Under the pieces are notes generated by a model. The model searched no databases. It was not told where the DNA came from and was given only the letters and a program-made list of their open reading frames with translations. A stretch of DNA of 25,959 nt, from positions 1 to 25,959 of the IMG/VR virus record IMGVR_UViG_3300035698_006639; one strand, 5' to 3'. A program made the translations under genes and the position numbers. Positions 5,891-17,885 of the stretch are shown here, one piece after another. Position 1 is the stretch's first letter, and each line of letters starts with the position of its first letter. The stretch is from a virus.

Positions 5891-6127
5891 ATGACAACAA
5901 AACCAAATACAAACGTTTCCTGTCAAATTTTACAATTGCTGGGATTAGACACAACTGGATTAATAGAAGCTACTATTTACTTTAAGGTTGATGATGTCGT
6001 TAGAATAGATGCCGCCTACTTGGCTGAAGTAGAATTGGATGACGAGGGTAATTTAAAAACTGAATTAAAGCAGTTTGTTTTGGCTGAAGTTACGGAGGAT
6101 GTTAAGGAGAAAGAAAGCAAAGTATGA
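5891..6127 (+). CDS. Hypothetical 78-residue protein
   Basis: This small protein has the segment ILQLLGLDTTGLIEATIYFKVDDVVRIDA and an acidic C-terminus (EVTEDVKEKESKV). The predicted character is a small beta-rich domain. Short proteins with a similar I-x-x-L-L-G-L-(D)-x-x-x-V-x-x-(A)-x-I-x-x pattern occur in head operons of other phages, but I cannot name a function. It is preceded by a partial SD (AAAAGGAA, 6-13 bases upstream of ATG). Its stop TGA overlaps the ATG of the nuclease gene (ATGA at 6124-6127), implying translational coupling. Confidence 0.65.
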   Translation: MTTKPNTNVSCQILQLLGLDTTGLIEATIYFKVDDVVRIDAAYLAEVELDDEGNLKTELKQFVLAEVTEDVKEKESKV

Positions 6128-6591
6128 GATTAGGACTTTGCACAAACGGAAGGTCAATTGAATACTCTATGCAAGAAGCTATGGAGACTTTTTTAAATAG
6201 AAAAGGATTAATATACAAAGATGAATTTACGGTTAAAGAAGTTTCAAGACGTGCTGACTTTTTAGTATTTAAAAAGCATAGTGGTTTAATTAATATAGAA
6301 GCTAAATGTAATGACTTTAAATGTATGTTGAAACAGCTAAACGATCACGCCAAATATTGTGATTATTGTTTTGCTTATATTACGGATGTTTGTAATACTC
6401 CGGTATGGTTTAAAAGAAAGCTGGCTGAATCTGGTTTTGGGTTAATAGTTTATAATTGTGATAGTGAAGAGGTAACTGAAGTATTGGAAGCCCATCATAA
6501 CCATAAAAGAGATAAAGAATTAAGAAATAAAATATTGAAAGAAATTAAAAAGCAACCATTATTAAAAAGAAATAAGTTTAAACATGTGTGA
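6124..6591 (+). CDS. PD-(D/E)XK-type nuclease-like protein
   Basis: This 155-residue protein has the core signature of the PD-(D/E)XK nuclease superfamily. Asp45 sits in RRADFLVF, and Glu59-Ala-Lys61 sits in LINIEAK 14 residues later. A helix DFKCMLKQLNDHAKYCDYCFAYI follows, as in VRR-NUC/MmcB-like minimal nucleases. The predicted activity is Mg2+-dependent DNA cleavage. It starts within an ATGA overlap with the upstream 78-residue gene and overlaps the downstream minor head gene by 8 bp, so it is fixed in the packaging/head operon. Possible jobs include processing DNA during packaging, host DNA degradation or exclusion of competitors; the sequence does not decide. The C-terminus is Lys-rich. 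No target-recognition domain is visible. Confidence 0.7.
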   Translation: MRLGLCTNGRSIEYSMQEAMETFLNRKGLIYKDEFTVKEVSRRADFLVFKKHSGLINIEAKCNDFKCMLKQLNDHAKYCDYCFAYITDVCNTPVWFKRKLAESGFGLIVYNCDSEEVTEVLEAHHNHKRDKELRNKILKEIKKQPLLKRNKFKHV

Positions 6592-9089: not shown

Positions 9090-9569
9090 ATGGCTTTAAC
9101 GAAAAAAACAATTAAGCTTAAAAAGTATAGCGATGTCATTGAGGAAATGACAGCGACCGCGGTTGCGCTGACTCCCGGAATGCTTTTAGAACAAGTGGCT
9201 GCGGGAACATGTCAAGCCCATTCAGGTGCTCAACTTCCTGTATTATCAATGTTTGCTTTGGAAGATGAACTTCAAGGAAATGGAATTGATACTGACTTCG
9301 CAGTTTCTGCTACTATTCAAGTATGGATTCCCGGACGTGGTGATATTGTGAATGCTCTATTGGCTAACGGTCAAACAATCGTAATCGGTGATAAACTGGT
9401 AAGCAATGGTGATGGTAAACTGAAGAAATATTCAGCTGTGGAAGATGAATCAAGTATTGGTGAAATATTTTACAGTGATGTTATTGTAGGTTATGCTGTT
9501 GATGCGGTTGATATGTCGGGCAGTAGCGCGGCTGACCCTGATGGACGTATTCAAGTTAGAATTAAATAA
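9090..9569 (+). CDS. Probable capsid decoration/stabilisation protein
   Basis: The product is 159 residues, beta-rich, with no Cys-rich or catalytic motif. Features include VALTPGMLLEQVAAG, FALEDELQGNGIDTDFA, VQVWIPGRGD-like IQVWIPGRGDIVNALLANGQ and GDKLVSNGDGKLKKY, with the C-terminus DGRIQVRIK. Proteins of this shape between the protease/scaffold and the major capsid gene usually coat the capsid as trimeric decoration or head-stabilising proteins. The G-x-x-V-x-x-x-L-A-x-G-x-x-(V)-x-x-G-x-x-L segment resembles those families. A strong SD argues for high expression, as expected of a stoichiometric virion protein. It is 4 bp after the scaffold gene. The exact family is not certain. Confidence 0.7.
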   Translation: MALTKKTIKLKKYSDVIEEMTATAVALTPGMLLEQVAAGTCQAHSGAQLPVLSMFALEDELQGNGIDTDFAVSATIQVWIPGRGDIVNALLANGQTIVIGDKLVSNGDGKLKKYSAVEDESSIGEIFYSDVIVGYAVDAVDMSGSSAADPDGRIQVRIK

Positions 9570-9577: not shown

Positions 9578-9585
9578 ACAAAAAT

Positions 9586-10716
9586 ATGCCTATGGATTAT
9601 ATGACACCCGGTGGAGCAATCGGGGACGTGGCCAACCGTATTCAAACGAATGGTAACACGCAGGTAGGAGCTATGAAACCTTTTGCAGTCTACAATAAGA
9701 GGATGCAAAGGTGGGAAATGGCAACTACAGTGTATGCAGGGGGTGACCCTAAGAAGAAAACAAGCTACCACACGTATTCACAACCAATGTCACCTCTGGA
9801 GGTTAATGCCGGAAGTACATTGCGAAGGGATGAGTGGAAAGCTTTGGATGAAGCTGTACTAAATATTTCACGTAGTCGTTTAGTAGGGGTGCAGGATTTG
9901 ATTAGTGACGGATTGATTTACCAATTGGGTAATGCGATGGGCACAACTGTACTGGAATGGCATGATATGAGTGATTCAATGGAAGCCGACCTGACTATGG
10001 ATGGGGTGACCCGTTCTAAAGGGGACAGGCCAGTATTCCAATATAACTATTTGCCTATCCCCATAATCCACGTGGATTATGAGATTAACGCACGAGCGTT
10101 GGCAGCTAGTCGTAATATGGGAAACCCATTGGATTCTACTTCAGCCGAAAATGCTGCCCGTAGGGTTGCTGAACGTTTGGAAGAAATGTTATTCACCAAT
10201 ACCACTAAAGCTTTTGGAGAGCTTGATCAACGCAGCCGTAATTCAATTTATAGTTACGTTAATCATCCAGATCGCAACCCCGTTACTTTAACGGTTAATT
10301 GGGATGCTGATGCTAAAACAGGGAAACAGATTGTGGATGAAGTAATGGATATGAAAAAAGCCAGTATTGCGGCTAAACATTATGGCCCATGGAATTTGTA
10401 TATTCCAACAGGTTATGAAACCACAATTGATGCTGATTATTCTGATGCCAAGGGTTCTAACACTATCCGGGAGCGTATCTTGAAAATATCTAATATCAAG
10501 AATATAAAAACTATTGATTCGTTGGCTGCCAATACTGTTCTTTTAGTACAGATGACTTCTGACGTGGTTCGTTTAGTTCGTGGTTTAGGTATGCAGAACG
10601 TTCAGTGGTCTACTGAAGGTAATATGGTTAACAAATATAAGGTGCTAACAATCCAAGTTCCTCAAATTAGGAGTGATCAGGATGGTAACTCAGGAGTTAC
10701 AATGTTATCAGCTTAG
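9586..10716 (+). CDS. Major capsid protein, encapsulin-like HK97 fold
   Basis: I assign 376 residues from the ATG behind a strong SD, beginning MPMDYMTPGGAIGDV. The stretches PIPIIHVDYEINARALAASR, ENAARRVAERLEEMLFTNTT, IYSYVNHPDRNPVTLTVNWD, HYGPWNLYIPTGYETTIDADY, NTIRERILKISNIKNIKTID and VLLVQMTSDVVRLVRGLG are familiar from encapsulin/linocin-like major capsid proteins of tailed phages. They include the conserved (Y/N)HP-x-R and IPTGYE segments. The protein forms the icosahedral shell. Position after protease/scaffold and decoration genes, and the strong SD, agree. A hairpin follows the stop (10724-10740). No N-terminal delta domain is evident, consistent with scaffold supplied by the upstream fusion. 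Confidence 0.9.
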   Translation: MPMDYMTPGGAIGDVANRIQTNGNTQVGAMKPFAVYNKRMQRWEMATTVYAGGDPKKKTSYHTYSQPMSPLEVNAGSTLRRDEWKALDEAVLNISRSRLVGVQDLISDGLIYQLGNAMGTTVLEWHDMSDSMEADLTMDGVTRSKGDRPVFQYNYLPIPIIHVDYEINARALAASRNMGNPLDSTSAENAARRVAERLEEMLFTNTTKAFGELDQRSRNSIYSYVNHPDRNPVTLTVNWDADAKTGKQIVDEVMDMKKASIAAKHYGPWNLYIPTGYETTIDADYSDAKGSNTIRERILKISNIKNIKTIDSLAANTVLLVQMTSDVVRLVRGLGMQNVQWSTEGNMVNKYKVLTIQVPQIRSDQDGNSGVTMLSA

Positions 10717-10767: not shown

Positions 10768-11130
10768 ATGGCAAAAAGAGACAAAAATAAAAACAAACCA
10801 ATAAGTCCTACTGAGGGTGAAATCCTTCATATTAAAATAGGGGGTGGTTCATTCCATTTTAAAGGTAAAATTATTAAGCCAAAGCAAACATTTCTTGCAG
10901 ACCCGGATGAAATACCTAAAGGTTTTAGAGATATTGTAAAGCCTATTGAGGACAAACCTGAAAACCGTAAAAAACCAAAAGTTCCTGCTGTACCCACTTA
11001 CAAAAAAGTAAAGATTGAAAAAGGAGACAAAAAAGGAAAATGGAACGTTGTAAATAGTGACGGTAAGGTTTTGAATGAAAAACCTTTGAATGAAAAAGAT
11101 GCGGATGCTTTAATTGAAACTTTTAGTTAG
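10768..11130 (+). CDS. Hypothetical 120-residue head-region protein
   Basis: This protein is strongly charged, starting MAKRDKNKNKP. It has three apparent parts. The first is a short beta domain (EILHIKIGGGSFHFKGKIIKPKQTFLADP, about residues 18-45). The second is a Lys/Pro linker (about 61-77). The third is a C-terminal mini-domain (about 78-120) with KKGKWNVVNSDGKVLNEKPL and DADALIETFS. The latter G-x-W-x-V-V-x-S-x-G-K-x-x-(N)-E-K-x-L-x-x-x-(E)A pattern recurs in small phage proteins next to capsid genes, but I do not know its function. A connector-edge or head-surface role is a guess from position. Only a weak AAAGAG precedes the start. The glycan cassette begins 6 bp after its stop. Confidence 0.7.
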   Translation: MAKRDKNKNKPISPTEGEILHIKIGGGSFHFKGKIIKPKQTFLADPDEIPKGFRDIVKPIEDKPENRKKPKVPAVPTYKKVKIEKGDKKGKWNVVNSDGKVLNEKPLNEKDADALIETFS

Positions 11131-11136
11131 TCAATT

Positions 11137-14100
11137 ATGTGGAATGTACCTCAGATATGGAAAGAAGAAATTTGGATTGTGGGCGGTGGCTCGTCAATGC
11201 CTAAACAATTTGGAGTTCCTGAAGATATTATTAAAGGAGTTTGTACAGGAACTATGCCCCCATCTAAATATTCACCGTATCTTGAGGCTATCCATGATAA
11301 ACATATAATAGGAATTAATATGTCATACCAGATTGGAGACTGGATGGATATTATATTCTTTGGTGATAATAATTTTTTATTGAAGAATGAAAAAGATTTG
11401 AGAGCTTATCCGGGTTTAAAAATATCTTGTGCCAACAAAGCGAAAAACCCAGAACATGATTGGGTGAAGTATTTGCCAATGGATTCTCAAAAGGTTTTAG
11501 GATTAACACGAAAGCGTTATAAAGTATCATGGAATTTAAACAGCGGAGCAGCAGCTATTAATTTAGCAGTCCATTTAGGAACAAAGAGAATTGTCCTATT
11601 GGGTTTTGACATGAAATTAGATGAGGGCAAGAACCAACACTGGCATAATCTATATAACAAGAATAATAATGTCGAAAAACGCAGCAAAGCGACTTTCAGG
11701 AGACATTTAAAAGGATTTCCAGCGATAGCACGTGATGCTAAATTGAGGGGGGTTGAAATTATTAATGTTAATCCTGATAGTGCCATTGGATGTTTTAAAA
11801 AAGCACCACTTGCGGAAGTACTGAAATATTCACTTCCAAAATTGATAATAGAAACGGAAGAAATTAAAATTGAGGAAACCCAAATTGAAGTTAAAACAAA
11901 TAAACTAGCTGACATTATAATACCACATCATGATCGTCATGATTTATTAAAAAACACATTGGATAAGCTTCCAACAGACCTTTTTAATATAGTAATTGTG
12001 TCGGGGGGCTCATTCGCAAGGAATTGTAATTTGGGGGCGAAGTTAGCTGAGACTGATAACCTCATATTTATGAATGATGATATTGAACCTGATGTCAATC
12101 AATTAATAGAAGCTTGTACTAATGAAGCAGACATAGTTGGATTTCCAGAAATATTACCGAATGATGGAAATGCTGTTATTTATGGAATAGGATGGGTTTT
12201 AAAAAATGATGGTGCTATAAGTTCAAATTTAAGAAGGGATCAACGAGATGTTCATATTCCCTCTGGGTTTTTATTTAAAGCTAAAAGCACTGCTTGGGAA
12301 AAATTAGGTGGTTTTGATGAGACATTTATAAATGGAGCGGAAGATGTAGATTTAGGATTACGCGCTAAAGAAATGGGGTTGAGTATTGATTATATTAAGT
12401 CAAAAACTCCAATTGTTCATTATCATAGTCAATCATCAGGAAGGATGGATCATAATGTTGAAAATAGAAAATATTTAAAGGAACTTTGGTCTGACAATAG
12501 AATCAAAAATGCGTTAAATTTAAAAAAAGAAAAAAGAATATTATTGACCAATAATCAAATGGAGCATTTTGGTGGAAGTGAGACTTTTACGTATACATTA
12601 ACAAAAGAATTGGAAAAACGTGGGTACAAAGTTGATGTGTTTACATTCAAACCTGGAAAAGTTTCTAATAATCTTTTTGAAATACATCCAAAAAATCAAA
12701 AAGAAACATTAAGAATGCGTTACGATTATATTTTTATAAATCATAATACATGCTTGAAACATCTTAAAACTATAAGAGGAGTAAAAGTTTTAACTTGTCA
12801 TGGTATTTTTCCAGCTTTGGAACAACCTGTTAAAGGTGCAGATGTGTATGTTACTATATCTGGAGAAGTAAAAGATCATTTAAAAAAATTAGGTTTTGAT
12901 TCTGAGGTAATTTACAATGGAATTGATTGTGGATTATTTAAACCTGTCAATAAAATAAATACGGAATTAAAAAATGTTCTTTCTATTTGTAAAGGGAAAA
13001 AAGCAAATGAAATTATAAAAAAAGCTTGTGATAAATTAGGGCTTACTTTTAAAGCTTTACGGTCTGTTGAAAATAATAAAATCAATGAGGTTAAAGAGGT
13101 GGAAGATTATATCAATGAAGCTGATTTAGTTGTAAGTTTAGGTAGAGGAGCTTATGAAGCAATGGCTTGTGGTCGTGCCGTGATTGTATTTGATAAACGT
13201 GGATACATGGATCGAATGTTAGGGGATGGAATAGTCACGGAAAATAATATTGAAGAGATAAAGAAAAATAATTTTTCCGGTAGACGGTATGAGATAGAAT
13301 TTGATGTTGATGGGATCGTAAATGAATTGAAAAAATATAAGAGTTCAATGGGAGCATTCAATCGAAAATATGCTTTGGTTCACTTCAATATCAAAAAACA
13401 AGTAGATAAATATTTCACACTTTTGGATAAAAAGATAATAAATTTTAGGTTTATTGATAGTTCTATTACGGAATATGGAATTGCAAAGAATCTTGAAAGA
13501 AAACTTGTAAAAGAAGGTTGTGTTTTAAGTGACAGTGAAGTTTCTATTTGCTATGCTAATGATATAGGAGAGCTTGTGCCTCATACAAATGAAGTACAGA
13601 CACCGGCTAATCACTTTCCACTTAAAAGAGCAGTGGAAAGTAAAGCGGATTATGTATTTTATAGTCAAAAAATAATGCAGCACTGGTTTCAAAGAAGCAA
13701 TTGTTTCTTTTTACCGTCTGGTTTTGATGAAAATGGATTTGGTAAAAAATGTAAAAAAGATATTGATGTAGGTTTTGTTGGTAGATTAAAATTCGATCGG
13801 AGATTACAATTTGTTAAACGTTTACAAAAAGAATTTGAAACTGTTGTTATTAAAGAGGGTATTTATTTTACAGAAATGGCAGATTTTTATTGTCAATGCA
13901 AAATTGTACCAAATTCTTCAACATCTAATGAAATTAACATGCGAATGTTTGAAGCAACCGCTGCAGGTGCTTTGCTTATAACACAGCGAGTTAAATATAT
14001 AGAAGATTTTTTTACGGACAAAGAGATTGTATTATATGATACAGAAGATGAAATGGTGGATAAAATCAACTATTATTTAGAACATGAAGAAGAAAGAATA

Positions 14101-14199
14101 ACAATAGCCAAAGCTGGTCAAAAAAGAACATTAAAATCATATAGTTATTTAATGAGGGCTCAAGAGATGATAAAAATAATACGAAATAATCCTATTTAG
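11137..14199 (+). CDS. Four-module glycosyltransferase polypeptide
   Basis: This protein is 1020 residues. Module 1 (about 1-235) resembles DUF115/GT42-like transferases: IWIVGGGSSM (12-21), GIGDWMDIIFFGDNN-like QIGDWMDIIFFGDNNF (65-80), IVLLGFDMK (152-160) and QHWH (167-170). Module 2 (about 257-455) is GT2, with IIIPHHDRHDLL, a metal-binding-like MNDD at 312-315, and the acceptor-site motif GGFDETFINGAEDVDLGLR (391-409). Module 3 (about 466-765) is GT4-like: QMEHFGGSETF (474-484), IYNGID (592-597), GRGAYEAMACG (669-679). Module 4 (about 768-1020) is a CgeB-like Glycos_transf_1_2 domain: VGFVGRLKFDRR (878-889) and NMRMFEATAAGALLITQ (934-950). Together these could extend one glycan through several steps. 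Acceptor and sugars cannot be read. The domain calls are from motif memory; module 1 is the least certain. Confidence 0.8.
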   Translation: MWNVPQIWKEEIWIVGGGSSMPKQFGVPEDIIKGVCTGTMPPSKYSPYLEAIHDKHIIGINMSYQIGDWMDIIFFGDNNFLLKNEKDLRAYPGLKISCANKAKNPEHDWVKYLPMDSQKVLGLTRKRYKVSWNLNSGAAAINLAVHLGTKRIVLLGFDMKLDEGKNQHWHNLYNKNNNVEKRSKATFRRHLKGFPAIARDAKLRGVEIINVNPDSAIGCFKKAPLAEVLKYSLPKLIIETEEIKIEETQIEVKTNKLADIIIPHHDRHDLLKNTLDKLPTDLFNIVIVSGGSFARNCNLGAKLAETDNLIFMNDDIEPDVNQLIEACTNEADIVGFPEILPNDGNAVIYGIGWVLKNDGAISSNLRRDQRDVHIPSGFLFKAKSTAWEKLGGFDETFINGAEDVDLGLRAKEMGLSIDYIKSKTPIVHYHSQSSGRMDHNVENRKYLKELWSDNRIKNALNLKKEKRILLTNNQMEHFGGSETFTYTLTKELEKRGYKVDVFTFKPGKVSNNLFEIHPKNQKETLRMRYDYIFINHNTCLKHLKTIRGVKVLTCHGIFPALEQPVKGADVYVTISGEVKDHLKKLGFDSEVIYNGIDCGLFKPVNKINTELKNVLSICKGKKANEIIKKACDKLGLTFKALRSVENNKINEVKEVEDYINEADLVVSLGRGAYEAMACGRAVIVFDKRGYMDRMLGDGIVTENNIEEIKKNNFSGRRYEIEFDVDGIVNELKKYKSSMGAFNRKYALVHFNIKKQVDKYFTLLDKKIINFRFIDSSITEYGIAKNLERKLVKEGCVLSDSEVSICYANDIGELVPHTNEVQTPANHFPLKRAVESKADYVFYSQKIMQHWFQRSNCFFLPSGFDENGFGKKCKKDIDVGFVGRLKFDRRLQFVKRLQKEFETVVIKEGIYFTEMADFYCQCKIVPNSSTSNEINMRMFEATAAGALLITQRVKYIEDFFTDKEIVLYDTEDEMVDKINYYLEHEEERITIAKAGQKRTLKSYSYLMRAQEMIKIIRNNPI

Positions 14200-14201
14200 T
14201 T

Positions 14202-14828
14202 ATGTATAAAGATTATAATAAAATGTGGAAAGCTTTAGCGGCAAGAAAGAATTGGAAAGAGTACATTTTGCCAAAAAGAACCAATAAAGAATTCTGGGAA
14301 GAAGGAAAAAAACAAGCTGAGTTTTTACAAACGTTCATAGATGTAAATGATACAGTAGTTGATTTAGGTTGTGGTATTGGTAGGGTTTTAAAGTTTATTA
14401 AAGCAAAAAAGAAAATAGGAGTAGATGTATGTCAGGATTTTTTAAATAAGATAAAGGATAAATCTATTGTAAAGATCATAGCAAATGGCAAGGATCTGAA
14501 TGGTATAGAAGATAATAGTGTTAATTTTTTATATTCTTTAATGACTTTCCAACACATGCAAAAAGAAGATTGTGTGTTGTATATGAACGACATCTATAGA
14601 GTTTTGCAATTAGGAGGCACTGTTTTTATTCAAGTGCCAAAACTTAATTCTAATTACTATAAATCATCTGGATTTGTAAATATTTATTCGAAAAAAGAAT
14701 TAGAACGATTAGTACAGGAATCACCATTCAAGAAATTTAAAATAAATAGAGGTAATTTAGTTGGTTATGCAGATAAGAATGAAAACATCGTTAAAAAAAG
14801 AGAATATTTTTTAATATTAACAAAATGA
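14202..14828 (+). CDS. SAM-dependent methyltransferase (class I)
   Basis: This 208-residue enzyme has the class I methyltransferase fold signature. Motif I is VVDLGCGIGRVLKF (residues 52-65), the acidic end of strand 2 is IGVDVCQDF (72-80), a motif IV-like stretch is NSVNFLYSLMTFQHM, and VLQLGGTVFIQVPK (about 134-147) follows. These are typical of Methyltransf_11/25-type small-molecule or sugar O-methyltransferases rather than DNA methylases; no NPPY or PC motif is present. Lying 2 bp after the multi-module glycosyltransferase and overlapping the next GT2 gene by an ATGA, it most probably O-methylates a sugar of the same glycan. The substrate is inferred from neighbours only. Confidence 0.85.
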   Translation: MYKDYNKMWKALAARKNWKEYILPKRTNKEFWEEGKKQAEFLQTFIDVNDTVVDLGCGIGRVLKFIKAKKKIGVDVCQDFLNKIKDKSIVKIIANGKDLNGIEDNSVNFLYSLMTFQHMQKEDCVLYMNDIYRVLQLGGTVFIQVPKLNSNYYKSSGFVNIYSKKELERLVQESPFKKFKINRGNLVGYADKNENIVKKREYFLILTK

Positions 14829-15553
14829 AAATTGCTGGAATAACAAGGATTAGAAATGAATCTGAAATAATACAAAATACATTAGACCATGTAGCAAAGC
14901 TTGTGGATGATATTTTTGTATATGATGATTGTTCTACAGATAATACAGTTAATATATGTAAAGCACATTCTGCTGTACATACTGTATTGTGTGGTACTTC
15001 TTGGGCTTCTGATCCAGTAGGTCGTAAAAATGCGGAAGGTAATTTACGCACACAAATACTTTTAGAAGCACAAAAGTATGATTACGATTGGATTTATTAT
15101 TTCGATGCAGATGAGTATGCTGATTTTGATGGTATTGATTTTACAGCAAATGCGTATAAATTAAGATTATTTGATTTCTACATTACACCAGAAGATGTAA
15201 ATAAAAAATACTATGAACGTCAATGGATGGGACGTGAGTATAGAGATATTTTAATGTTGTTTAGAAATGTACCAAATACAAAATTTGGAGAACGTATTCC
15301 AATACTTTCATTTGCATCTAAAACAATTGTATGTGCAGGATATGTTAAACATTATGGTAAAGCAATTTCTATTGAAGAATGGGAACGGACATGTGATTAT
15401 TATATTAATCATCGTGGTGGTGATTTATTACCTGAATATACAAATAAATGGATAGAACGTAAGGGTAAAGCAGTTCATACAAAATCTGATTTTGGTAATA
15501 AATTAATTAAGTGGGAACAACGATTTGAATTTGAACACATACATAAATTATGA
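14825..15553 (+). CDS. Glycosyltransferase family 2-like protein
   Basis: The product is 242 residues. The N-terminus MKIAGITRIRNESEII and VYDDCSTDNTV (33-43) match the nucleotide-sugar-binding half of GT2 (GT-A fold) enzymes, and FDADEYAD (93-100) supplies the metal-binding Asp-x-Asp-Glu. The middle GREYRDILMLFRNVP and the C-terminal VKHYGKAISIEEWER fit the compact GT2 group that follows N-E-x-x-x-(L)-x-x-x-L-x-x-x with D-x-D-E. Catalysis would be single inverting glycosyl transfer. There is no membrane segment, so it is cytoplasmic. Start and stop both lie in ATGA overlaps with neighbours, giving tight translational coupling inside the cassette. The donor sugar is unknown. Confidence 0.85.
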   Translation: MKIAGITRIRNESEIIQNTLDHVAKLVDDIFVYDDCSTDNTVNICKAHSAVHTVLCGTSWASDPVGRKNAEGNLRTQILLEAQKYDYDWIYYFDADEYADFDGIDFTANAYKLRLFDFYITPEDVNKKYYERQWMGREYRDILMLFRNVPNTKFGERIPILSFASKTIVCAGYVKHYGKAISIEEWERTCDYYINHRGGDLLPEYTNKWIERKGKAVHTKSDFGNKLIKWEQRFEFEHIHKL

Positions 15554-16173
15554 AGTTTAGCATAATCATACCAACCATGTGGAAATGTATTCCATTCTTG
15601 AGAGAGATGGTTTGTAAATATGACAGATGTGAGTTTGTTGAAGAAATCCTTATTATAAATAATGATGAGAGTGCTAGTGTAAAATTAGAAAGCGATAAAC
15701 TTAGGATATTAGGAACAGGCAAAAATATGTTTGTAAATCCGGCTTGGAATTTAGGCGTTACAGAGGCTAAAGCTGAAGGAATTATTTTAGCTAATGATGA
15801 TATTTATATAGAACGTCTTGATGAAGTTATTAGAGAGTTTAGTTTTTGGATTAGAGAAGGAATGTTAATTGGTTTTAGTACTGAAAGCTTTACCAATTCA
15901 ATTCCTATTCAAATTCGATTATGTTACACGAATGTGTTAACTTATGGGTTTGGAGTTTTTATGGGGCTTTTTAAAAATTCATATACTCCTATACCCTCTG
16001 AATTAAAAGTATGGTATGGTGATAATTATTTATTAATAAAGAATTTGGGAGTTTATATTGAAGGATTTAAAGTAATAACCACTATGAGTGCTACTTCCAA
16101 GACAATGACTTTAAAAGACCAGCATAGAATAGAAAAAACTTATTTTGAAAAGCTTGTTAAAAATGGAAAATAA
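15550..16173 (+). CDS. GT2-like glycosyltransferase, short
   Basis: This 207-residue protein starts MKFSIIIPTMWKC, the usual first strand of GT-A transferases. It has EEILIINNDES (31-41), NPAWNLGVTEAKAEGIILANDD (63-84) with the NDD in the place of the Asp-x-Asp motif, and a later VWYGDNYLL. The layout resembles module 2 of the large protein (N-x-G-x-x-x-x-x-x-x-x-I-x-x-N-D-D), so the two may be distant relatives. It is shorter than typical GT2 enzymes and lacks a clear C-terminal acceptor motif of the E-D-V-D type, so activity is less certain. It overlaps the upstream gene by ATGA and the downstream gene by 11 bp. Confidence 0.7.
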   Translation: MKFSIIIPTMWKCIPFLREMVCKYDRCEFVEEILIINNDESASVKLESDKLRILGTGKNMFVNPAWNLGVTEAKAEGIILANDDIYIERLDEVIREFSFWIREGMLIGFSTESFTNSIPIQIRLCYTNVLTYGFGVFMGLFKNSYTPIPSELKVWYGDNYLLIKNLGVYIEGFKVITTMSATSKTMTLKDQHRIEKTYFEKLVKNGK

Positions 16174-16858
16174 AAAAGACACGGTAAATGTAGTGTTAGT
16201 TTTAAAGTCTGGGGGTGATTTTAAATTTGACGATGTTTCTTTAATCGCTTGTCATTTACATAAGCAATGGCGTGGTGAAAAAGAACTACGCGTGTATTGT
16301 TTATTCGATAAAGCTTTAAAGCCTATTGAATTAGTTGGGGTTACTTTATTACCAATGCCCGAAAAGGATTATATGGGGTGGTGGTGTAAGATAAATTTAT
16401 TTTCCCCACAAATCAAGGATTTAAAACCATTTTTATATTTGGATTTGGATTCCGCTATCTTAAAGGATATATCTTGTCTTATACCGGATGAAACGTTGGC
16501 TAAAGAGTTTATTATGTTGAGAGACTTTTATAAAAATAGTAAACCCGCTTCAGCAGTGATGTGGATTCCAGATAAATCAGAGTTAAATCAAATATGGGAT
16601 GATTTTAAAAGAAAACCGGGTTCAATAATAAATGCCAACCGGGGTGATCAGGACTTTATTAGTAAAACGGTCAAGGTTATCAAGTTTTGGCAAGATTTGT
16701 TTCCCCGGAAAATTGAAACATTTAAACCACACCAACGAAAGTGGTTAAAAGATATTAGTGAAGAAACAGCAATTGTTTGTTTCCATGGTTATCCAAGAAT
16801 CCCTCAAGCTGCCAGTATGGTACAATGGGTTTGTGATTATTTTAAAAACAGAATATGA
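16163..16858 (+). CDS. GT8-like glycosyltransferase
   Basis: I start at ATG 16163 (231 residues, MENKKDTVNVV); an in-frame TTG at 16145 would lie deeper in the upstream gene. Motifs include MGWWCKINLFSP (about 71-82) and the metal-binding-like LYLDLDSAI (91-99, Asp94-Leu-Asp96). They also include NRGDQDFI (159-166) and CFHGYPRIPQA (206-216), the order found in retaining GT8-type and related GT-A transferases (DxD, then D-Q-D, then a H-x-G end motif). It would add one sugar from a nucleotide donor. It overlaps the upstream gene by 11 bp and the sulfotransferase gene by ATGA. The exact GT family should be checked by profile search. Confidence 0.75.
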   Translation: MENKKDTVNVVLVLKSGGDFKFDDVSLIACHLHKQWRGEKELRVYCLFDKALKPIELVGVTLLPMPEKDYMGWWCKINLFSPQIKDLKPFLYLDLDSAILKDISCLIPDETLAKEFIMLRDFYKNSKPASAVMWIPDKSELNQIWDDFKRKPGSIINANRGDQDFISKTVKVIKFWQDLFPRKIETFKPHQRKWLKDISEETAIVCFHGYPRIPQAASMVQWVCDYFKNRI

Positions 16859-17505
16859 AAATCTTTAATCCAATATTAATAACAGGTGCTGATAGATCAG
16901 GGAGTTCATTAGTAACTAGAATAATTCAATTGTGTGGGGTGCAAACGGGAGCTTCCAATCAAATGTTACAAAATAGAGTGATACAAAATAAAAGTATTTC
17001 GTTTATTCAAAGTGTTTTACAAAAAGGGTTTATGCCTGATTCTGAAAAGATAAATATTCCAAGAAATTGGAAAGCTGAGATTGAAAACGAATTAACTCCA
17101 GATATTAAATGGATGTTTAAAAGTAGTACCATTGCTCAAATGTGGCCAGTATGGAATTATGCTTTTCCAAATGCTCGTTATGTTATTGTAAGACGGCGCA
17201 CTGGTGATATTGTAGATAGTTGTATGAAAACGAATTATATGGATTTATTTAAAAATGAATCTAATTGGAAAGCTATTGGAGTAGATAATGAAAAAGATGC
17301 TTGGGTGTGGTGGGTGAGACAATATGAACAAAAATTTATAGAGATGTTGGAGTGGGGTTGTAATTGTAAAATCATATGGCCTGAAAGAATGGTGACTGGA
17401 GATTATGCTCAAATTTATGAATTGGTTGAATGGTTAGGTTTAGAATGGAATAATAAAATACCAACTATTATTGACCCAAAATTTAATAAAAGTAGGAGGG
17501 ATTAA
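16855..17505 (+). CDS. PAPS-dependent sulfotransferase-like protein
   Basis: The product is 216 residues. The N-terminal P-loop-like PILITGADRSGSSLVTR (6-22) is the 5'-phosphosulfate-binding loop of sulfotransferases. RYVIVRRRTGDIVDSC (108-123) matches the 3'-phosphate-binding strand-helix with its conserved Arg and Ser-like residues. The WVRQYEQKFIEML segment and the C-terminal short form fit the Sulfotransfer_1/3-like enzymes of bacteria. The reaction would move sulfate from PAPS to a hydroxyl, here presumably of the cassette glycan; the alternative, a small-molecule or protein acceptor, is not excluded. It is the last cassette gene. Its final codons AGGAGGGAT form the SD of the connector gene 2 bp downstream. 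Confidence 0.8.
   Translation: MKIFNPILITGADRSGSSLVTRIIQLCGVQTGASNQMLQNRVIQNKSISFIQSVLQKGFMPDSEKINIPRNWKAEIENELTPDIKWMFKSSTIAQMWPVWNYAFPNARYVIVRRRTGDIVDSCMKTNYMDLFKNESNWKAIGVDNEKDAWVWWVRQYEQKFIEMLEWGCNCKIIWPERMVTGDYAQIYELVEWLGLEWNNKIPTIIDPKFNKSRRD
17495..17499 (+). promoter_or_regulatory. Strong SD of the connector gene
   Basis: GGAGG lies 8 bases before the ATG at 17508, encoded by the last Arg-Arg-Asp codons of the sulfotransferase gene. The strong site marks the return from SD-less cassette genes to structural genes. Confidence 0.85.
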
Positions 17506-17507
17506 AA

Positions 17508-17885
17508 ATGGCAAATAGAGTAGATGAAGCAGATGTTAGTGCAATATTGGATAACACTACTTTGACTGATCAACAAATTTTAGCATACATCAATAGTGCA
17601 AATGCTACTATAAATAATGCGTTAGCAGATAGTGGTTTGAGTAGTGATATTTTATTCGAAATTGAACGGTGGTTATCAGCTCACATGATTTCTATTACAA
17701 GGGAAAGGATGGCGAAAAAAGAGGAGGCTGGTTCAGCTAAAATTGAGTACATTGGAGTGTATGGGAAGGGTTTAGAATTGACCCCTTATGGACAGATGGT
17801 TTTGGATTTAGACACCACCGGAATCATGGCTTCATTGGGTGGAAAATCGGCAACTATTTACGCAATACCTGAAAGTCATGATTAA
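17508..17885 (+). CDS. Head-tail connector (gp6-like adaptor)
   Basis: The product is 125 residues and mostly alpha-helical. It begins MANRVDEADVSAILDNT, followed by TDQQILAYINSANATINNAL, IERWLSAHMISITRER, a short turn and a beta end (AKIEYIGVYGKGLELTPYGQ). The V-x-x-I-x-(D)-x-x-x-x-D-x-x-x-x-x-x-I-x-x-A pattern and the W-L-(A/S)-A-H-x-x-(S) segment are typical of HK97 gp6/SPP1 gp15-like connector rings that sit below the portal. Position before the head-closure, gp10-like and terminator genes fits exactly. Start is fixed by a GGAGG. The C-terminus mentions no catalytic motif. Confidence 0.8.
   Translation: MANRVDEADVSAILDNTTLTDQQILAYINSANATINNALADSGLSSDILFEIERWLSAHMISITRERMAKKEEAGSAKIEYIGVYGKGLELTPYGQMVLDLDTTGIMASLGGKSATIYAIPESHD

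Follow-up and report, generated by a model that had tools for sequence, protein, structure and literature searches.

Glycosyltransferases (GTs) encoded by mycobacteriophages are reported to modify capsids and tail tubes, and glycosylated capsids to be recognised less well by antibodies (Freeman et al. 2023, cited in PMC10877033 and PMC12691614), and mycobacteriophage Corndog carries an O-methyltransferase and three GTs between its portal and protease genes, the enzymes having been detected in infected cells and not in virions, with capsid modification proposed by the authors (PMC4351075). Reports of phage virion glycosylation are recent and concern few systems. Here we analyse IMG/VR virus record IMGVR_UViG_3300035698_006639, a 25,959-base virus fragment holding one morphogenesis operon (taken whole and referred to as the window), in which positions 10768-17505 are probably a glycan-assembly cassette, inserted in a fixed slot between the genes for the major capsid protein (MCP) and the head-tail connector and modifying a phage structural protein. 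Like Corndog gp35-gp38 (Cluster O), for which the available passages describe an O-methyltransferase and several GTs inside the virion structural operon, the window has GT and methyltransferase genes within its virion operon, on the + strand; the insertion point differs, lying between portal and protease in Corndog and between MCP and connector here. Those Corndog passages, which concern an unrelated host, mention no sulfotransferase, no slot with fixed ends and a variable middle, and no counterpart of g10768, the small protein proposed below as docking protein or acceptor.

A fixed insertion slot with conserved ends

The interval from MCP to connector was compared across 86 loci, the number left after removal of identical connectors. 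Relatives had been fetched by MCP, sulfotransferase, the 1020-aa protein of the cassette and its N-terminal module A, and only the MCP-anchored sampling is independent of the cassette; the material consists of metagenomic fragments, with hidden Markov models (HMMs) built from close relatives and open reading frames (ORFs) called from the first start. The slot is filled in 76 loci and empty in 10, a proportion that is not an estimate of frequency, since empty slots were deliberately sought in one sampling round. Filled slots measure 1.0-10.8 kb (median 5.4 kb) and contain 1-14 ORFs, 571 of 577 of them on the operon strand. Their ends are fixed: g10768 homologues occur in 75 of the 76 filled slots and in 0/10 empty ones, module A in 73 (as first enzyme in 72) and the sulfotransferase in 66 (as last ORF in 59), with a variable middle of 0-11 genes between them. 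The empty slots are without g10768, module A and sulfotransferase alike, and form two groups on the MCP tree, so that emptiness changed about twice. In the MCP-anchored sample, 51 loci span the slot and 48 are filled, with g10768 in 48/48, module A in 46/48 and the sulfotransferase in 37/48.

The middle genes are enzymatically diverse. Pfam searches on 145 pooled middle ORFs recovered Glycos_transf_2 (24), epimerase/GDP-mannose dehydratase families (about 10), GT11 fucosyltransferase-type proteins (6) and cupins (5), as well as several methyltransferase families; given the epimerase/dehydratase families, some relatives encode sugar-nucleotide synthesis, unlike the window. Five loci whose MCPs are 93-95% identical (L044, L053, L057, L066 and L067) have slots of 5.3, 3.5, 1.0, 5.6 and 3.9 kb, respectively, and most pairs among them have few or no middle genes in common; L058 and L082, at 91% MCP identity, have one of six middle genes in common. 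Other near-identical pairs have all middle genes in common, and exchange is therefore frequent, not universal. Different phages may wear different virion glycan coats. The first-pass annotation of the window had taken the locus for a complete assembly line and had proposed searching neighbouring genomes for the same gene order with and without it; the comparison of filled and empty slots shows instead that the window carries one of many versions of a cassette whose ends are conserved and whose middle is hypervariable. Two long cassette relatives (L014:1-10759 and L015:1-10759) contain, upstream of sulfotransferase and connector, proteins that by eye were judged radical-SAM-like, UDP-sugar 4,6-dehydratase-like, LmbE-like deacetylase and acyltransferase-like.

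Enzymes encoded by the cassette

The six + strand frames that the annotation had described as coupled to one another and to the connector gene lie at 11137-14199 (1020 aa), 14202-14828, 14825-15553, 15550-16173, 16145-16858 (likely start, the ATG at 16163) and 16855-17505, and are joined by overlaps of 4-11 nt or gaps of 2 nt, with the connector starting at 17508 (Table 1). The coupling was thus borne out; the extent is amended in that the unit begins upstream, at g10768. Family searches agree with the annotated count of up to seven predicted glycosyl-transfer modules, two of which (module B and the GT64-like protein) are each called from one weak match, and with one class I methyltransferase (Methyltransf_11) and one sulfotransferase (Sulfotransfer_3) dependent on 3'-phosphoadenosine 5'-phosphosulfate (PAPS). 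As also annotated, the window has no recognisable gene for sugar-nucleotide synthesis. No membrane-like segment was found in the cassette proteins (best 19-residue hydropathy, 1.27). The three single GTs that follow the methyltransferase include two confident assignments and a borderline one, the GT64-like protein, which has one homologous gene type at two loci (33% identity); PDB sequences gave no useful match to it or to the phrog_1962-type protein. The GT at 14825 has weak similarity, below cut-off, to the SunS peptide S-glycosyltransferase.

Within the 1020-aa protein, residues 43-231 match phrog_4603 (sialyltransferase-like), residues 365-427 give weak GT2/GT7C matches below curated cut-offs, residues 292-430 match NCBIfam GT models (3e-6, below cut-off), residues 478-598 match Glyco_transf_4 (5e-13) and residues 902-1012 match Glyco_trans_1_2 (1e-30). 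Nearly all relatives carry module A as a gene of its own, of ~235 aa. Modules B-C-D form a single ~825-aa protein (44-76% identity per module) in phages without a detectably related MCP, where the stand-alone gene lies upstream of a ~700-aa ORF; module B alone is 45-73% identical to a conserved GT of other phages. The 1020-aa gene is a fusion of module A to a three-module GT, through which B-C-D were acquired. Base composition agrees with this reading, the GC content being 36% in module A and 30% in B-C-D, with 27-34% in other middle genes and 38% in the connector. A search with B-C-D returned coiled-coil noise only.

The AlphaFold2 (AF2) model of module A, computed from 76 sequences (predicted local distance difference test, pLDDT, 93), matches in Foldseek searches of the PDB both the CstII sialyltransferase (E 4e-5) and the MptE-like HPPK 8sd5 (E 9.5e-4, prob 1.0), at a template modelling (TM) score of ~0.45. 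By sequence, the window module scores 17.0 bits against PF01973 (MptE-like), under the curated cut-off of 34.6, and among its homologues PF01973 is matched by 74/76 at E <= 0.05 (best 3.6e-6) and CST-I by 2/76. Since the GT42 Pfam model PF06002 has no match in the window, GT42 membership is not claimed by sequence; it is the modelled fold that places module A in the GT42/MptE-like superfamily. The residues invariant in module A comprise a GGGxS loop, N61, D77, W132, N135, G137 and H190. Module A is likely a nucleotide-sugar transferase, and the fold suggests that its donor may be a cytidine monophosphate (CMP)-nonulosonate.

The sulfotransferase scores 37.4 bits against Sulfotransfer_3 (cut-off 27), a family matched by all nine aligned homologues (E <= 0.01). 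Two elements are invariant in the alignment, TGxxRSG and IVRRxxxDxxxS, the latter including R114...S122 (R-x7-S); we take TGxxRSG to be the 5'-phosphosulfate (PAPS) loop and R-x7-S the 3'-phosphate motif. Family score and both motifs agree in predicting a PAPS-dependent enzyme. No match to it was found among 50,697 phage records (E<=1e-3).

Table 1. Features of the cassette and of its flanking virion genes (window coordinates)
Feature	Coordinates	Strand	Basis
Head decoration protein, candidate acceptor	9090..9569	+	phrog_766, E 1.4e-8; strong Shine-Dalgarno in 95% of relatives
Major capsid protein (MCP), left slot border	9583..10716	+	phrog_771, E 8e-27; DUF6260, E 8.5e-24
g10768, two-domain small protein, cassette start	10768..11130	+	present in filled slots, absent from empty slots
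Module A of 1020-aa protein, predicted GT42/MptE-fold transferase	11137..11841	+	phrog_4603, E 1e-32; AF2 fold
Modules B-C-D of 1020-aa ORF: one GT-A-type and two GT-B-type GT modules (predicted)	11842..14199	+	Pfam matches; stand-alone homologues
Class I S-adenosylmethionine (SAM) methyltransferase	14202..14828	+	Methyltransf_11, E 1.4e-10; motif VVDLGCGIGR
GT2-type glycosyltransferase	14825..15553	+	Glyco_tranf_2_4, E 4e-15
Probable glycosyltransferase, GT64-like, weak	15550..16173	+	Glyco_transf_64, E 2.3e-4; 21.0 bits vs cut-off 21.3
phrog_1962-type glycosyltransferase	16163..16858	+	E 2e-36; invariant DLD (DxD) motif in alignment
PAPS-type sulfotransferase, usual last enzyme	16855..17505	+	Sulfotransfer_3, E 4e-9, above cut-off
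Head-tail connector (DUF4054-like), right slot border	17508..17885	+	DUF4054, E 1.5e-4, slightly below cut-off; phrog_302, weak; synteny

g10768 and its fusions

The protein g10768 consists of two small domains and a linker, its homologues measuring 66-192 aa (some cut at contig ends), and its AF2 model is well defined in the N-domain (pLDDT ~91), with a predicted TM score (pTM) of 0.41 for the whole. It evolves fast, at 26-45% identity where module A has 46-55%. The N-domain (residues ~19-60, about the first 55 residues of the protein) recurs in larger proteins: in L044 and L066 it forms the N-terminus of a ~705-aa transferase-like protein, in L053 and L067 that of a ~315-aa protein and in L045 that of a fusion resembling module A and an FkbM methyltransferase, and it sits between two domains in L063. 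Most of these loci are closely related to one another, and it was from context and by eye that the ~315- and ~705-aa partners were judged to be enzymes. Because three distinct sorts of protein serve as partners, all located in the MCP-connector slot, the N-domain suggests itself as a docking domain, and g10768 as a whole is proposed to be a docking protein or the acceptor.

Database searches with g10768 gave no significant Pfam, PHROG or NCBIfam match and no match in the PDB, where the best E was 0.5 for sequence and 1.9 for fold; viral structures returned only small phage proteins without known function, and for the homologue in L002 no match was found among the same phage records (E<=0.1). 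A likeness to a protein of the D3-like phage PP9W2 (E 0.35) was too weak for use. The same B-C-D GT appears with different small N-terminal domains in L020:7262-9811 and L018:9893-12391, and these look like exchangeable docking domains whose kinship to g10768 is not demonstrable. When profiles of the g10768 N-domain and of the first ~45 aa of the stand-alone B-C-D GTs were compared, the match (P 0.004, probability 8%) was not accepted.

The surrounding virion operon

The operon runs from terminase through portal (Phage_portal_3, E 3.5e-30), MuF, a DUF2213-type protein, decoration protein and MCP to the cassette, and continues with the DUF4054-like connector, tail genes and tape measure. The MCP frame, which starts at 9493 in the ORF list and likely at 9583, encodes a protein 49-65% identical to its relatives. 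The same protein also has encapsulin matches, to Linocin_M18 (E 1e-7) and, below cut-off, to the NCBIfam family 1 encapsulin model (E 2e-8); with the DUF6260 match alongside, a link between phage capsids and encapsulins becomes visible. A small ORF between portal and MuF (6124-6591) gives weak matches (E 0.01) to MmcB-like/HSDR_N nuclease folds, in a location unusual for a nuclease-like gene. The window belongs to a tailed phage whose host is probably of the Bacteroidota, as judged from metagenome-assembled genomes (MAGs) matched in genome collections and labelled Bacteroidetes/Bacteroidota (4), Balneolales, Syntrophomonadaceae or unclassified; contig binning in MAGs can err, and the host assignment is qualified for that reason.

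Promoter and terminator scans of 9.0-19.3 kb found 53 and 4 sites, respectively, compared with 50.1 and 4.2 in shuffles, so that a separate cassette promoter is not arguable. A strong Shine-Dalgarno sequence precedes capsid, decoration and tail-tube genes in 90-95% of relatives, about half of the connectors, g10768 in 18% and the cassette enzymes in 7-8%; it may mark the most abundant virion proteins. The contrast of weak enzyme and strong structural-gene signals is expected for catalysts co-transcribed with structural genes, and the low rate for g10768 weighs mildly against a stoichiometric coat protein. In the window, the start regions concerned lie at 9090, 9583 and 19287.

Candidate acceptors and interpretation

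The activities, reaction order, acceptor and benefit that we infer for the cassette would combine as follows. Late in infection, soluble cytosolic enzymes expressed from the virion operon would modify a phage structural protein, before or during virion assembly. Module A would start the chain, perhaps from a donor such as a CMP-nonulosonate; the exchangeable GTs would extend it, the methyltransferase would methylate it (on the assumption that the glycan is the methyl acceptor) and the sulfotransferase would add a terminal sulfate from host PAPS, an order (module A first, sulfate last) suggested by fixed gene order and conservation only. g10768 would bring the enzymes to the acceptor, as GlfM does for a flagellin transferase (see below), or would itself be the acceptor. 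Exchange of middle genes between phages would then generate different virion glycotypes, with evasion of glycan-binding defences, stability or adhesion as the likely benefit. Modification of a virion protein in the cytosol is favoured because the enzymes are soluble and co-transcribed with late genes, lipid-carrier and flippase genes were not recognised, and the slot is linked to capsid and connector.

Several observations weigh against this interpretation. When filled and empty loci were compared for their capsid, decoration and other virion proteins, no clear acceptor emerged, and no column of the capsid and decoration alignments separates all filled from all empty loci. In the connector, residue 81 (window numbering) is Tyr in 74 of 76 cassette rows (window included) and Phe in 9 of 10 empty loci, and position 76 is Pro in 10/10 empty loci and in 1/76 filled ones. 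Tyr81 is a possible acceptor site or else a clade marker; it is a lead and not evidence, because it rests on two independent slot changes with three exceptions and because other columns track the same clades. Two minimal MCP-connector cassettes (L119:11103-12242 and L203:3891-4902) have g10768 and the sulfotransferase and no GT, which a pure glycan-capping model does not explain; as the slot of L057 has g10768 and module A only, the two fixed enzymes are evidently usable separately. Finally, the window is a 26-kb fragment, and other modification genes could lie elsewhere.

The minimal cassettes lend some weight to an alternative in which direct sulfation of a protein, for example on a tyrosine of a neck protein, is the core reaction, with the GTs separate or acting on top of it. 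The Tyr81/Phe contrast in the connector can be read in its favour, as can the closest PDB profile matches of the sulfotransferase, which are tyrosylprotein sulfotransferases aligned over their length; yet that match is not significant (E 0.085), the contrast is subject to the clade effects just given, and ten filled loci without a slot sulfotransferase still have Tyr81. We regard direct sulfation as unlikely. Phage GTs classically modify the host surface (gtr loci), and the first-pass annotation had named the host surface glycan alongside a virion protein as target. In that case the enzymes would alter lipopolysaccharide, capsule or S-layer glycan, with serotype conversion or superinfection exclusion as outcome, and one cassette GT2 does match the GtrB-like phrog_841, only at E 0.037. 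Yet the cassette proteins have no significant match to GtrA, GtrB or GtrC and no membrane-like segment, and neither a GtrA-type flippase nor a polyprenyl-phosphate GT nor a polymerase was recognised; a surface change encoded in the late morphogenesis operon would come just before lysis, and in 76 loci the slot stays with the capsid and connector genes. With two clades devoid of the whole set as well, the virion protein was retained as the best explanation of the target, the host surface being improbable.

T-even phage GTs act on hydroxymethylated bases, and in the phage genome, too, modified bases could be what the transferases decorate; GT and sulfotransferase genes of phages have been read as possible nucleotide or protein modification systems (PMC10829341). 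However, no base hydroxylase or hydroxymethylase was recognised among the proteins searched in the window, itself a fragment, the genes are fixed beside capsid and connector genes and not replication genes, and a base adduct would hardly call for as many as 11 middle enzymes. DNA hypermodification appears highly improbable. The preferred reading, modification of a virion protein by a glycan-assembly cassette, can be extended, tentatively and with somewhat more doubt than confidence, to one in which the cassette corresponds, in a phage, to an O-antigen locus: the first enzyme and the sulfotransferase cap, both fixed, would together with a small docking or acceptor protein bracket freely exchanged enzymes and give close relatives different sulfated virion glycans, the g10768 N-domain serving as a portable module by which any enzyme fused to it is directed to the virion.

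If true, large groups of uncultured Bacteroidota phages would vary the surface chemistry of their particles in the way that bacteria vary their capsules, and a dedicated hypervariable slot would bring together enzymes of sugar-nucleotide synthesis, methylation and sulfation. With g10768 and its fusions the cassette supplies an acceptor/docking pair open to testing, along with natural empty-slot controls, and it is a source of candidate enzymes for sulfated protein glycans.

Relation to known systems

Beyond Corndog, a related gene order is found in the Pseudomonas phages D3 and PP9W2, where MCP, a 95-aa protein, a module-A relative (phrog_4603, 'alpha-2,3-sialyltransferase') and connector follow one another. 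The likeness of D3, PP9W2 and PAJU2 is restricted to module A, at 24-37% identity, and they have no sulfotransferase; D3 and PP9W2 have a single GT in the slot, PP9W2 with a GT-B gene further downstream, and in PAJU2 the module-A relative lies after the head closure gene, with a methyltransferase two genes after it. The PAJU2 protein (ORF010; L266:1396-1965) was labelled 'structural protein' by its depositors and may therefore be virion-associated. GT42 sialyltransferases (CstII) and MptE-like enzymes have the same fold as module A, at 12-16% identity and a TM score of ~0.45.

As a functional analogy only, the Maf flagellin glycosyltransferase and its small co-encoded factor GlfM (Unay et al. 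2024, as cited in PMC13317340) resemble the cassette in pairing a transferase with a small factor that aids access to a structural protein. Bacterial O-antigen/capsule and flagellar glycosylation islands have, like the cassette, conserved flanks and an exchanged middle of GTs, epimerases and methyltransferases; the cassette differs from them in its place within a phage virion operon and in having no flippase, polymerase or lipid carrier enzymes. The placement of GT and methyltransferase genes in a virion operon, considered unusual in the first-pass annotation, has precedents in Corndog and the D3-like phages, whereas the addition of a sulfotransferase does stand out. The kind of system is thus already known, from Corndog, the GTs of Freeman et al. 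and the gene order of D3 and PP9W2. Four features, for which no description was found in the literature searched (most subscription papers fell outside reach), appear to be new: the sulfotransferase cap, the slot with fixed ends and a hypervariable middle, the empty-slot controls and the docking-domain fusions.

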